Part shown: one piece after another, positions 15,285 through 19,517 of the stretch
Layout: every line of letters starts with the position of its first letter
How positions within the stretch are numbered: the stretch's first letter is position 1
Assembly (NCBI GenBank): GCA_903920145.1
Contig: CAIXKV010000139.1
Coordinates: 1-64,000 of the forward strand
Direction: 5' to 3'
Source of the DNA: an uncultured Rhodospirillales bacterium
Lineage (GTDB): Bacteria; Pseudomonadota; Alphaproteobacteria; Azospirillales; Azospirillaceae
Length of the DNA stretch: 64,000 bases
Notes under the pieces: model-generated
Seen by the model: the letters and a program-made list of their open reading frames with translations, nothing else
Told to the model about the DNA's origin: nothing
The model's database searches: none
Made by a program: the position numbers and the translations under genes

Positions 15285-16796
15285 TTATTGTATCGGCGCC
15301 CCTTCCACCATCGTTCCCTGCCGCACCCTCGCCCCCGTCAACAGGGCGCCTAGCAAGAAGCCGATGGTGCAGACCAACACGCCGTACAGATTGACGCCAA
15401 GGTCAAGGGCATATCGACCGCTTCCAACCGCAAGCTCGGGTGGAAAGATCGACACTTTCGCGAAGGTTTCGACGGCACGGGTTACGCCAATGATCAATCC
15501 TGGCCAGAATGCCAGATGAAAGCTCAGTGTCCCGGCCGAACGCAGCCAACCCAGCAAAAAGATCGGCGCCAACCCAATCACCATGGTTCCGCTGATGGTG
15601 GTTGCGGCAATCACCGCCGGGCCGATGCGATCTCCCAAATAGAGGGTCAGCAAGGGCAAATTACCAACGATGGCGACGACCAGAACCGCCACGCGCCCAA
15701 TTCGCAAATGCGATGCCGTTGGATCATCCACGGCATTTCGCCAATCGCGAGCCGCCAACTTGGCAACACTCGTAAAGGTCGAATCAATGGTCGAACCCCC
15801 GGACAGCAGCATCATGCCATTGAACAGCATGAGCATCAGCAGCCCGAACGACGCCGGGACACTGACCGTAGCCTGACCCGACAGGCCGAACGCCCGACCG
15901 TAAAGCCCAATCAGCCCAAATAACAGAATGAAACCACCGCTCAACACGGCCGCCAGTAAAAAGCTTTGCAGCATTTGCCGGGGAGAATTAAGAAAGCCGC
16001 GATCCGTCAACACCGGATCGTGGAACGGATAACTCCAGATTTGCACCAGAGCCAACAAACAAAAGGTCATGCCAGCGGCTTCGGTATCTGCCGGGACCGG
16101 CGGCAATCCATGGCTTTGTAAACCAGGAAGCAGCACCGCCAACACCACTCCCAACAGGACAAAGATCAGCAATGTTTGCAAGCGGTCGGTCATCAAGCTC
16201 GCCCGCATGCCGCCGGACCACGCATAAGCCAACGTATAGAGCGTCACGGCAGCGGCGGCCAACCAATAGGCGGTGCTGCCCTCGGGGCCGAAATACAGCG
16301 CCATCACTTTGGTGTTGGACCAAACTTCGTTCAACAGACGAAAGCCGACCACCAATAGAAAGAGTCGGGCCGCGATCCCGCCATATTTATCCACCAGATA
16401 ATGCATCAAGGATCGATAGCCGCCGCGCACCCGCAACAGATAGATGGTGACGCCGGCAACCACGAAACTGAGATAATAAATGGTATAGCCAATGGCTCCG
16501 GTCGGGCCGAACGTCAAGGACAGGTCCGAAACATTGACGATGGACTTGGCAAAAATCCAGGTGATGGCGGCACTGGCCGCGACCAGCCACACACCGGGCG
16601 CCGCCCCGTTGCCGGCCCCCCCGTTGAAAAATTGTTGAACGCCAACCCGTCGTGGAATCGCCAACGTGGTTACGATGCCGTAGACCGCAAAGACGACCCA
16701 CGGAGCCAGGGAATCCCAAGTCATGACCACGGATGCCTTCCAACCGATGACGCCAAGCGCAACTAGGCAGAACACCAACCCGCTGTCCAATGACAT
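15285..16796 (-). CDS. Sodium:solute symporter family transporter
   Basis: A 503-residue polytopic inner-membrane protein of the SSS family (LeuT fold) with about 13 predicted helices. Visible landmarks are AITWIFAKSIVNVSDL in the second helix, YLLRVRGGYRSLMHYL, and the SGGSTIDSTFTSVAKLAARD segment, which resembles the Na2 site region of SSS proteins. The substrate cannot be deduced. It is divergent, almost end to end, with the metallophosphoesterase at 16798, so the two promoters must lie inside each other's coding sequence or the metallophosphoesterase start is slightly downstream. Confidence 0.88.
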   Translation of the reverse strand: MSLDSGLVFCLVALGVIGWKASVVMTWDSLAPWVVFAVYGIVTTLAIPRRVGVQQFFNGGAGNGAAPGVWLVAASAAITWIFAKSIVNVSDLSLTFGPTGAIGYTIYYLSFVVAGVTIYLLRVRGGYRSLMHYLVDKYGGIAARLFLLVVGFRLLNEVWSNTKVMALYFGPEGSTAYWLAAAAVTLYTLAYAWSGGMRASLMTDRLQTLLIFVLLGVVLAVLLPGLQSHGLPPVPADTEAAGMTFCLLALVQIWSYPFHDPVLTDRGFLNSPRQMLQSFLLAAVLSGGFILLFGLIGLYGRAFGLSGQATVSVPASFGLLMLMLFNGMMLLSGGSTIDSTFTSVAKLAARDWRNAVDDPTASHLRIGRVAVLVVAIVGNLPLLTLYLGDRIGPAVIAATTISGTMVIGLAPIFLLGWLRSAGTLSFHLAFWPGLIIGVTRAVETFAKVSIFPPELAVGSGRYALDLGVNLYGVLVCTIGFLLGALLTGARVRQGTMVEGAPIQ

Positions 16797-16797
16797 G

Positions 16798-17655
16798 ATG
16801 CCGCATGCAATAATGGAGGTCGGGACACCGAAGGACGGGCCAATTTTGGTTTTTGGCGGGCCCTATAGCAACCAAGAGGCGACTAAAGCGATTTTGAACG
16901 AAGCCCGACGTCAGGGCATTCCCACCGAGCGGATTCTCTGTACCGGCGATGTGGTGGCCTATGGTCCCGATCCGGTCGAAACCGTGGCGAGGCTCCGGGA
17001 CGCCCGCGTCACGGTCATCATGGGCAATTGTGAAGAAGCGTTCGGCTGGCAGCGTCCTGATTGCGGGTGCGGGTTCACAACGGCCAGCACCTGCGACCGG
17101 CTGTCAAGCGCCTGGTATGCCTACGCCGATGCTCGCCTGACCGCCGCCGATCGCGCCTGGATGCGCGCCCTCCCCAGACGACTTGACCTCCGGTTGCCGG
17201 AGAACCGCCGTCTTGCGGTGGTCCATGGCTCACCCCAACGCCTCAATCACTTTGTTTTTGCTTCCGATCCTTGGGTGGACAAGGCGGCCCATATCCACGC
17301 CGCCGGCTGTGTCGGTATCATCGCCGGCCATAGCGGCCTGCCCTTCACCCAGAGCCACGACGGCCTGCTTTGGCACAACGCCGGAGCCATCGGCATGCCC
17401 GCCAATGACGGCACCCCCCGAGTCTGGTACAGCCTGCTGACCCCTCATCCGGCGGGCCTCGACATTCACACCCACGCCCTCACCTACGACCACGCCACCA
17501 CGGCCCGCAAAATGCGCGCCGCCGGCCTCCCACCCGGCTATGCCGATGCCCTGGAAACCGGACGATGGCCAAGCCTAGACAGCCTCCCGCCCACCGAAGC
17601 CTCGGCGATCGGTCGGCCTCTGGTGGCGGAACACAGGCGATGGAGGTTCCTGTAA
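16798..17655 (+). CDS. Metallophosphoesterase-like protein lacking the first metal motif
   Basis: A 285-residue protein aligning by eye to the calcineurin-type MJ0936/diadenosine-tetraphosphatase group. It keeps CTGDVVAYGPDPVE (D51), IMGNCEE (N77), VVHGSPQ, the GHSGLPF segment and NAGAIGMP. Where the family has S-D-x-H-G-N, this protein has GGPYSN (20-25), losing both metal-binding Asp and His; the later GHxH also reads GHSG. It may be a pseudoenzyme or use altered chemistry. The frame is open to 16723; starts at 16798 or 16813 avoid overlap with the divergent symporter. Confidence 0.75.
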   Translation: MPHAIMEVGTPKDGPILVFGGPYSNQEATKAILNEARRQGIPTERILCTGDVVAYGPDPVETVARLRDARVTVIMGNCEEAFGWQRPDCGCGFTTASTCDRLSSAWYAYADARLTAADRAWMRALPRRLDLRLPENRRLAVVHGSPQRLNHFVFASDPWVDKAAHIHAAGCVGIIAGHSGLPFTQSHDGLLWHNAGAIGMPANDGTPRVWYSLLTPHPAGLDIHTHALTYDHATTARKMRAAGLPPGYADALETGRWPSLDSLPPTEASAIGRPLVAEHRRWRFL

Positions 17656-17674
17656 TGCCATCAAAGATAAGTCG

Positions 17675-18007
17675 TTATGGGATGCGCAACACCCGCTCCA
17701 CCAGCATAGCCGTTCCATAGGCCAGAAACTCATTCATGGAGCCGCCGATTTCCGATGAATCCAGGCGCATCATGACGATGGCGTTGGCGCCGATGGCCTT
17801 GGCATTGAGGATCATCCGTTCGAGGGCCAGTCGCCGCCCTTCTTCCAGCATTTCGGTATATTCCCGAATCTCGCCGCCGAAGATCGACCGGAACGACGCC
17901 ACCACGTTACCGCCAACCCCCCGGCTGCGAACGGCCACGCCAAACACATGGCCTCTGACCGCAAGAACCCGATAGCCCGGCAGATTTTCAGTGGTAACCA
18001 CGAGCAT
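17675..18007 (-). CDS. UPF0145 / YbjQ-like heavy-metal-binding-domain protein
   Basis: A 110-residue YbjQ-family protein with the family core: MLVVTTENLPGY at the N terminus, a GHVFGVAVRSRGVGGNV strand, then the RMILNAKAIGANAIVMMRLD helix-strand, and AYGTAML at the end. Members form pentameric barrels; 'heavy-metal binding' is an annotation name, and the actual role is unclear. ATG at 18007 follows AAAGGG; an upstream open frame to 18091 is unlikely to be translated. It is the last gene of a minus-strand group that includes the DUF683 gene and pfp. Confidence 0.88.
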   Translation of the reverse strand: MLVVTTENLPGYRVLAVRGHVFGVAVRSRGVGGNVVASFRSIFGGEIREYTEMLEEGRRLALERMILNAKAIGANAIVMMRLDSSEIGGSMNEFLAYGTAMLVERVLRIP

Positions 18008-18119
18008 AGCCGACCCTTTGGTGATGACCGAGACCGGCACGGCGACGCCCCCGACTGACTCAGACCAACAGGTTTTGACGTGACATATCAAGACCTGTTG
18101 GGATCACCGCCGCCGATCG

Positions 18120-18317
18120 TCACGCTTCCAGCGCCTTCAACCGTTGGCGGGCCTCGGTCAAGCGAGCATACAGATCATGGGCACGTTGAGCGACGTCGGG
18201 GATTCGCTCCCAGCCAACCGGCAAGTCTTCGGACAAATCATGCAGATCCATCTTGGCTTGGGTGGCCTGGGCATTCAGCTTTTTAACTTCGGCTTTGACC
18301 GTATCCACGTCGCTCAT
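18120..18317 (-). CDS. CCE_0567 / DUF683 family metalloprotein (nif-associated)
   Basis: A 65-residue, all-helical coiled-coil protein with the diagnostic segment AKMDLHDLSEDLP, followed by GWERIPDVAQRAH. In diazotrophs this family (Rop-like, PF05082) is normally encoded beside nifX, a DUF269 gene and a ferredoxin, and Cyanothece CCE_0567 binds metal. Here it sits between UPF0145 and a phosphofructokinase gene, not in a nif cluster, although an Isc-type ferredoxin gene lies two genes upstream. ATG at 18317 follows GGGGAATAG. Role here unknown; it suggests the organism, or an ancestor, fixes nitrogen. Confidence 0.8.
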   Translation of the reverse strand: MSDVDTVKAEVKKLNAQATQAKMDLHDLSEDLPVGWERIPDVAQRAHDLYARLTEARQRLKALEA

Positions 18318-18356
18318 GTCTATTCCCCGCCCGCTCAAAGGTCCGATACCGGCTCC

Positions 18357-19517
18357 TTAATACATAAACATCGGCTTGCCCAATGGATTGCGGATCCGGG
18401 GCCGATATCCTTCGGAATCATAAAGTGACCCGACATCGACCCGTTTTTGGCCGGTGATGCAGGTATCCGCTGGCACCGTGGTATAAACGCCGTGCCGCAA
18501 AGCCGCCATCACGCCAAAATGGCCGAGTTCCAATTGGTGAATCGCGACATTGGCAAAGGAATTGGCTGCCATCCGATCCATGGAATCCGGCGCCCCGGCC
18601 CGCATCAGATAGGCCAACTGCTGGTTGACGATATCGACGCCGGTCAACGCCTTAAGAGCCTCGCCGGTGATCTGGCCGATGCCCCCTAATTTTTTGTGAC
18701 CGTAGGCGTCTTCCTGGCCATACTCGACCACTTGGCCGCCGATCATGGCCGCACCTTCGGAAATCACCACCAAGGCGTATTTGCTGGGGTTGCGCTCGCG
18801 ATCGTCCACCAACAGCCGGGCCAGACGCTCGACATCGAACGGGACTTCGCTGATCACGGCGCGGTCGGCATCGGACAGATAGGCCGACACCAGCGCCGTT
18901 TCGCCGCTGTTGCGCCCGAACAGTTCGATCACGGCAATCCGCTCGTGACTGCCGGTGGGGGTCCGCAGGGCGTGGATAAACTCGATGCTCCGCGTCACCG
19001 CCGTGCTGAAACCGATGCAATAGTCAGTTCCAAACACGTCATTATCCATGGTCTTGGGGATCGAGACCACTCGCACGCCTTCCTGATGCAGGCGCACGCC
19101 ATAGGACAGGGTATCGTCACCGCCGATGGGAATCATGGTGTCGATTCCCAACCGCTCCAACACCTTCAACACATGCCCGGTGCAATCGACCGTTTTGGCC
19201 TGGGGATCAGCCAATCCCAGGCTCTTGAGGGCCGCCGGCAAATCCTGGGGCCGAACCCGTCCCGGATGAGTTCGCGAGGTATGCAGGAACGTCCCGCCGG
19301 CCCGGTCGACAGTTCGCACCCGTTCCGGGGTCAGAGGCCAAACGCAGGCGTCGTTTTCCTCCACCGAAGCATCGAGATTATAGTTCAGCAACCCGGCCCA
19401 TCCCCGGCGGATGCCGACCACTTCCCAGCCATTTTCCGCCGCCCGCGAAACCACGGTTTTAATGCAGGGATTGAGACCCGGAACGTCGCCGCCGCCGGTC
19501 AGGATACCGATTCGCAT
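18357..19517 (-). CDS. pfp: 6-phosphofructokinase, probably pyrophosphate-dependent
   Basis: A 386-residue PFK-family enzyme converting fructose-6-phosphate to the 1,6-bisphosphate. The N-terminal loop is GGGDVPGLN. The phosphoryl-donor motif is GGDD (132-135) rather than GGDG, and the catalytic loop is PKTMDND (154-160) with Lys instead of the Gly of ATP enzymes. These two substitutions are the established markers of pyrophosphate-dependent PFK, giving a reversible reaction usable in both glycolysis and gluconeogenesis. It is about 9 nt downstream of the ferredoxin gene and upstream of the DUF683 and UPF0145 genes, probably one transcript. Confidence 0.9.

Follow-up and report, generated by a model that had tools for sequence, protein, structure and literature searches.

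A conserved metallophosphoesterase family with half of its metal site replaced and a candidate radical SAM partner

Judged from its sequence, the metallophosphoesterase encoded at positions 16798 to 17655 of the window (the whole 64,000-nucleotide stretch of DNA analyzed here) is a real, conserved and functional variant. Neither a sequencing error nor an ordinary phosphatase fits, because its family is well conserved, half of the metal site is replaced, and the neighbors suggest a radical enzyme as partner. The link of the family to a family of radical SAM enzymes is strong and the type of pathway is moderately supported, while substrate and chemistry are what we infer from the surrounding genes. 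We see about an even chance that the protein belongs to a conserved half-site metallophosphoesterase family working with an ArsS-like radical SAM enzyme in an organometalloid-sugar (arsenosugar-type) pathway, for which arsenic is the best lead and not a result.

The reading frame is open, without stops, across 16798-17655, and the translation confirmed the coordinates and the motifs GGPYSN, GDVVAYGPDP, GNCEE, VHGSP, GHSG and NAGAIG. Pfam matches above the cut-offs (PF12850, 38.2 bits against 27; PF00149, 23.3 against 21.5) place the protein in the calcineurin-like metallophosphoesterase superfamily, and its own genome holds one copy (search at E <= 0.001). An earlier note on this DNA had read the first metal-binding Asp and His as Gly and Tyr, and GHxH as GHSG, exactly as they stand in the frame. 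Beyond these replacements, the His of GNH(D/E) is Cys (GNC), and a Cys motif, C89-x-C91-x7-C99, lies downstream of GNC. The features are given below, with counts from alignment A1, whose 69 rows are the window protein and 68 loci of a contig scan; L043 and L089 were left out of it and of the tree.

16798 to 17655, plus strand: variant metallophosphoesterase gene, 285 amino acids (open reading frame and translation, Pfam, AlphaFold2 model, dN/dS)
16855 to 16872, plus strand: replaced motif I, GGPYSN (residues 20-25) for (S/T/A)DIH(A/S)N; G20, G21 and N25 in 69/69, Y23 in 66/69
16939 to 16950, plus strand: C48-T-G-D51, with the bridging Asp kept and a conserved Cys ahead of it; C48 and D51 in 69/69
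17026 to 17031, plus strand: N77 of metal site 2 kept (69/69), with the catalytic His of GNH replaced by C78 (Cys 67/69, Val 2/69)
17062 to 17094, plus strand: new Cys triad C89-x-C91-x7-C99, all three in 69/69
17224 to 17226, plus strand: H143 of metal site 2 kept (69/69)
17326 to 17337, plus strand: GHSG for GHxH, with H178 kept and the second His replaced by G180 (both 69/69); residue 179 is Cys in 45/69 and Ser in 18/69
15285 to 16796, likely start near 16724, minus strand: divergent sodium/solute symporter-like gene, a recurring neighbor (TIGR00813 sss, 25.8 bits)

Following the usual assignment, we take D51, N77, H143 and H178 to be the ligands of metal site 2, and the altered residues to stand in place of the private ligands of metal site 1 (G21, Y23, G180) and of the catalytic His (C78). 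All four site-2 ligands are present, each in every row of A1. The site-1 ligands, namely DxH and the second His of GHxH, are absent, and the catalytic His of GNH(D/E) is absent throughout. With the catalytic His and one of the two metal sites lost, ordinary two-metal phosphodiesterase activity appears unlikely.

An AlphaFold2 model built from the 69-row alignment (pLDDT 94.5, pTM 0.92) was compared with known structures using Foldseek and VIA-align. The predicted model grouped with 1nnw, 3rqz, 2gju and the Ap4A hydrolase SapH (3qfm/3qfn; Z, 25.6-26.3), the best match being the SapH-like phosphoesterase 3qfm_A (Z, 26.3; rmsd, 2.8; 244 residues aligned). With 3rqz, 1nnw, 2gju and SapH (Spr1479, 3qfm) it shares the fold over most of the chain (215-244 residues aligned), the GD, GN, H and GH motifs and a GxxGxP tail; in contrast to them, the window protein has DxH, the His of GNH and the second His of GHxH replaced, and has an added Cys triad and a longer loop. 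Matches to PP5, calcineurin and Vps29 scored much lower (Z, 17.3 and below). Vps29 has the metallophosphoesterase fold in a nonphosphatase role, in retromer; it is eukaryotic, its fold score is lower (5w8m; Z, 15.7), and we know of no radical SAM link for it.

The fold lies nearest a group to which the asymmetric Ap4A hydrolase SapH belongs, and all four site-2 ligands are invariant; both would suit a protein that remains an active one-metal phosphohydrolase, using the kept site and family-specific residues, with an ordinary nucleotide or sugar phosphate as its substrate. In that case salvage of 5'-deoxyadenosine or MTA, not metalloid chemistry, would account for the link to the radical SAM enzyme. 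The replacement of the catalytic His and of three site-1 ligands speaks against this explanation, to which the MTA-type phosphorylases described below are also relevant.

To see how far the altered motifs extend, homologs were collected in two ways. The contig scan yielded 70 homologous loci with six short peptides of the window protein as queries. Close relatives were therefore favored, and as one query, MGNCEEAF, contains C78, the constancy of that residue is partly selected; motif I, the Cys triad and GHxG are in none of the six peptides. The class sample of 289 Alphaproteobacterial genomes, not selected via those peptides, gave 23 matches, comprising 20 variant members and three canonical ones (G042, G169 and G189) that were dropped from the count.

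The earlier note had raised the possibility that GGPYSN marks a variant family, and the homologs bear this out. Invariant in all 69 rows of A1 are GG, Asn25, Asp51, Asn77, His143, His178, Gly180, Cys48 and the three Cys of the triad; in a 20-row alignment to which seven divergent members were added the triad was still invariant and C48 variable (Asn in L017 and L019). In an 80-row tree a 100/100 branch split 77 variant sequences from three canonical ones (L021 to L023), and all 77 carry GGxx(S/G)N, C-x-C-G-(F/Y)-x5-C and GHxG. Across the full set of 90 variant loci (87 distinct sequences), GGxx(S/G)N and C-x-C-G-(F/Y)-x5-C were each found in 89; the exceptions are L012, with an apparent frame break immediately before the motif, and L013, whose Cys motif reads CACG instead of CGCG. 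By record title the members are mostly Alphaproteobacteria or unplaced Proteobacteria. Others lie on contigs labeled Kiritimatiellota (L084, a complete genome), Betaproteobacteria (L053), Endobugula (L079) and Terriglobia (L035), the last three being metagenome-assembled genomes whose taxon labels may be wrong.

The refuting case named in the earlier note, close homologs with DxH, did not turn up, and the canonical relatives found were distant: L021 to L023 are 27-36% identical, and L162 and L163, outside the tree, score 82 and 75 bits, against at least 317 for true members, and have DIHAN motifs. Five canonical relatives carry DIHAN or DIHSN at motif I, and the Cys triad is missing at its columns in the four canonical rows aligned. 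Local mutation, decay or sequencing error in the window's own genome has a vanishingly small chance of explaining the replacement, given the motif in 77/77 variant tree rows, the open frame and a dN/dS of 0.28 relative to L024, the closest homolog found (70% identical; dS, 0.78; 275 codons). We rejected it, since the homologs share the replaced motif.

The association with a radical SAM enzyme is most direct in 34 of the 70 contig loci, where the phosphoesterase frame runs on into a radical SAM domain. Another 12 have the radical SAM gene separately but nearby, so that 46 loci hold the two fused or near each other. Fused genes occur in the named strains Enhydrobacter aerosaccus ATCC 27094 (L030), Acidocella aquatica (L045) and Ancylobacter dichloromethanicus (L060), and the fused state needs at least five changes on the tree, in which 20 of 77 inner branches are weakly supported. 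Both a separate radical SAM gene and a phosphoesterase-radical SAM fusion were seen in some genomes: in L060 (5025-7803) they are in tandem, and G095 (L130 and L131) also has both. In a Mantel test, protein distances of the two partners were correlated (r, 0.65 for 41 pairs; r, 0.81 for the 12 pairs encoded by separate genes), each with 0/2000 permutations reaching the observed value and with genome relatedness ignored; L043, L049, L052, L057, L070 and L089 were left out of this test.

Frequent fusion, together with the missing site 1 and catalytic His and the presence of Vps29 among the fold matches, is also what might be expected of a catalytically dead, Vps29-like scaffold or regulator that docks the radical SAM enzyme or a transporter. 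However, the site-2 ligands and the Cys triad are invariant in 69/69 rows, beyond what a scaffold would be expected to need, and no regulatory gene stood out among the recurring neighbors of the contig loci. We regard such a role as quite improbable. The earlier note had likewise suggested a regulatory pseudoenzyme, a suggestion that gained no support because the recurring neighbors look biosynthetic or transport-related.

The partner belongs to a radical SAM family different from ArsS. It scored 66.1, 62.8 and 61.3 bits against the ArsS model TIGR04167, below the cut-off of 300, and hhalign related it to ArsS at 98.3% over 152 core columns only. Its best NCBIfam match was the Rv1681 (MoeX) family, NF049973, at 87-96 bits, far under the 380-bit cut-off and limited to the core. 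By eye, five C-terminal Cys are similarly spaced in the partner and in ArsS. The ArsS protein gave tblastn matches of at least 50 bits in 20 of 70 loci, every one of them among the 46 loci with the new radical SAM, and these were taken as cross-matches to it. In several of the regions examined the new family (L094 1474-2445; alignment A3) adjoins TIGR04282/TIGR04283 genes.

Co-occurrence was assessed across the class sample, where the new radical SAM was found in 83 of 289 genomes (E <= 1e-30), the phosphoesterase family in 20, TIGR04283 in 106 (E <= 1e-25; 92 over cut-off) and ArsS in only 2 (E <= 1e-50). The radical SAM was present in 17/20 family genomes versus 83/289 overall (Fisher P, 9e-8), and TIGR04283 in 79/83 radical SAM genomes (P, 6e-42), both tests ignoring genome relatedness. 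As the family accompanies the radical SAM in just 17 of 83 genomes, the radical SAM does without it elsewhere. Alphaproteobacteria may generally use the new radical SAM family as their ArsS-like enzyme.

Three family genomes lack the new radical SAM. G053 has neither enzyme, while G014 and G147 carry a genuine ArsS about 1.5 kb away and are the only two ArsS genomes of the 289. In G014 the family gene is grouped with genes for ArsS, an MTA-type phosphorylase, a TIGR04283-type glycosyltransferase and PhnD/PhnE, and G147 shows the same ArsS, TIGR04283-type, PhnD and PhnE genes; the family's usual partner, in contrast, is of the other radical SAM family. On the tree the two copies (L014 and L015) fall within the family, grouped with copies from Acetobacteraceae and Roseomonadaceae (support, 91/97), and in this group PhnD is often close to the gene. 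Such a placement suggests that ArsS may have replaced the new radical SAM as partner.

A general role in the ArsS pathway was considered and rejected. In a phylum sample of 398 genomes, with up to six first-look candidates scored per genome, the family was found in 0 of 116 ArsS genomes, and the six members found, of which G499 was counted on 317 bits alone, were without ArsS; the family therefore appears to be no general step of that pathway. Two further matches, G306 and G422 (82 and 75 bits), carry the canonical ADIHAN and SDIHAN and were not counted. Genuine ArsS thus occurred in 116/398 genomes of the phylum sample (E <= 1e-50) versus 2/289 of the class sample.

In what is a weak test, ArsM did not track the family. 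With NF008823 (E <= 1e-35), a model that misses the ArsS-bearing control Synechococcus elongatus, it was found among 46 chosen genomes in 3/20 with the family, 1/13 with the radical SAM only and 2/13 with neither; the same search did not detect it in the window's own genome, G014 or G147. In G167 and G116 the new radical SAM has an ArsM-like gene, scoring below curated cut-offs, close by, and an ArsM-like query gave weak matches in 2/70 loci (L066 and L091). We speculate that the lack of association with ArsM might be explained if a PhnCDE-type or SSS-like transporter imported a methylated oxyanion.

The wider neighborhoods of the 70 contig loci were surveyed by tblastn with single example queries. 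The raw counts, for which there was no background set of loci for comparison, were 24 for VTT, 20 for a flavin disulfide reductase, 18 each for TIGR04283 and TIGR04282, 16 for PhnE, 15 for PhnD, 8 for SSS, 5 for DUF547 and 4 for an MTA-type phosphorylase; an MFS transporter was near the gene in 12 loci. At least one listed partner was found in 64/70, and none within the DNA examined around L031, L032, L053, L082, L092 and L093. Some marine loci have unrelated-looking neighbors, ApaG-like and FolE-like (named by eye). Neighbor names were checked on examples with NCBIfam and Pfam, several falling below cut-offs: TIGR04283 was over its cut-off of 182 in L039 and under it in L086 (147.8), L126 (146.6) and L164 (165), and TIGR04282 was over cut-off in L039, L086 and L164. 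The word "arsenosugar" in the names of these two glycosyltransferase families is an NCBI label. A neighbor of the MTA-phosphorylase family was over cut-off in L039, which favors the one-metal hydrolase with a salvage function; against it, an MTA-type phosphorylase is near in just 4/70 loci, and on balance we think that explanation rather unlikely.

A close series of these genes was found on plasmid p546-1 of Roseomonas haemaphysalidis, the sole match among 72,556 plasmid records both for the phosphoesterase family (E <= 1e-20) and for the radical SAM (E <= 1e-30). Genes for TIGR04282, DUF547, a second radical SAM, the radical SAM, PhnD, PhnE, a PhnC-like ATPase and the phosphoesterase lie on one strand, and from the second radical SAM through the phosphoesterase the frames overlap by 1-4 bases, with one gap of 10. 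The second radical SAM (L164 14210-15589), which adjoins the first, is TrsS/Tes-like at 100 and 90 bits, below cut-offs. A similar-looking radical SAM (cluster c31, by eye) is near the family gene in L026, L050 and L078.

In the window's own genome the parts are spread over three contigs: the phosphoesterase is on C139, TIGR04283 on C216, and a radical SAM homolog, 61% identical to the fused domain of L036, on C19 in a row with flavin disulfide reductase, DUF3047, VTT and DUF547 genes. The symporter-like name of the upstream gene is weak, because its 25.8 bits compare with a cut-off of 184 and there is no Pfam match; homologs occur in 8/70 loci, including Kiritimatiellota L084 and Endobugula L079, and also in L131 and L142. 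Within 15285-16872 the symporter-like frame (first start 16796) and the phosphoesterase frame (16798) are divergent, their starts nearly touching, and a symporter start near 16724 would leave a short shared promoter region. L024 (3056-5943) also has a symporter homolog and, like the window (16798-19517), a phosphofructokinase-like gene (by eye) next on the opposite strand.

These observations can be placed beside what is described for arsenosugars. According to PMC12159101, oxo-arsenosugar biosynthesis includes the adenosylation of arsenic by a radical SAM enzyme, and PMC8552651 assigns the first steps in Synechocystis to SsArsS with SsArsM. In the organometalloid-sugar pathway that we favor, an oxyanion or organometalloid would be imported or made, the radical SAM enzyme would attach a deoxyadenosyl-type group, and a phosphorylase would strip adenine to leave a ribose 1-phosphate derivative. 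The half-site phosphoesterase would then bind that phosphorylated or metalloid intermediate. The kept half-site of D51, N77, H143 and H178 may hold one metal, and the Cys triad may stand in for the lost one as a soft-metal or metalloid site; the protein would either hydrolyze a phosphate with one metal or just hold the intermediate and hand it on. In favor of this pathway are the invariance of the altered site, the repeated fusion or adjacency to the radical SAM gene and the neighbors shared across loci; against it weigh the lack of the family in the 116 ArsS genomes of the phylum sample, the ArsM result, the rarity of an MTA-type phosphorylase nearby (4/70 loci) and the scatter of the genes over three contigs in the window's own genome.

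A bolder and previously undescribed version, which we think unlikely to hold in full, is a two-part system, often one polypeptide, in which the new ArsS-like radical SAM and the half-site phosphoesterase domain make a metalloid-ribose compound, the hard two-metal site having given way to a mixed one in which a single metal is joined by a Cys triad, the latter binding the intermediate's trivalent metalloid. Among the literature matches listed (titles and abstract openings), no paper on the variant phosphoesterase family or on its radical SAM fusion was found, an absence that is not proof.

Collectively, these findings show that what looked like an unusual motif marks a family whose role can be tested. 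Some named strains carry the fused gene, which makes a direct search for the pathway and its product possible. Through this family, attention is also drawn to a group of radical SAM enzymes that 83 of 289 class genomes encode and that is tied to "arsenosugar" glycosyltransferases, in a sample with ArsS itself in only 2.
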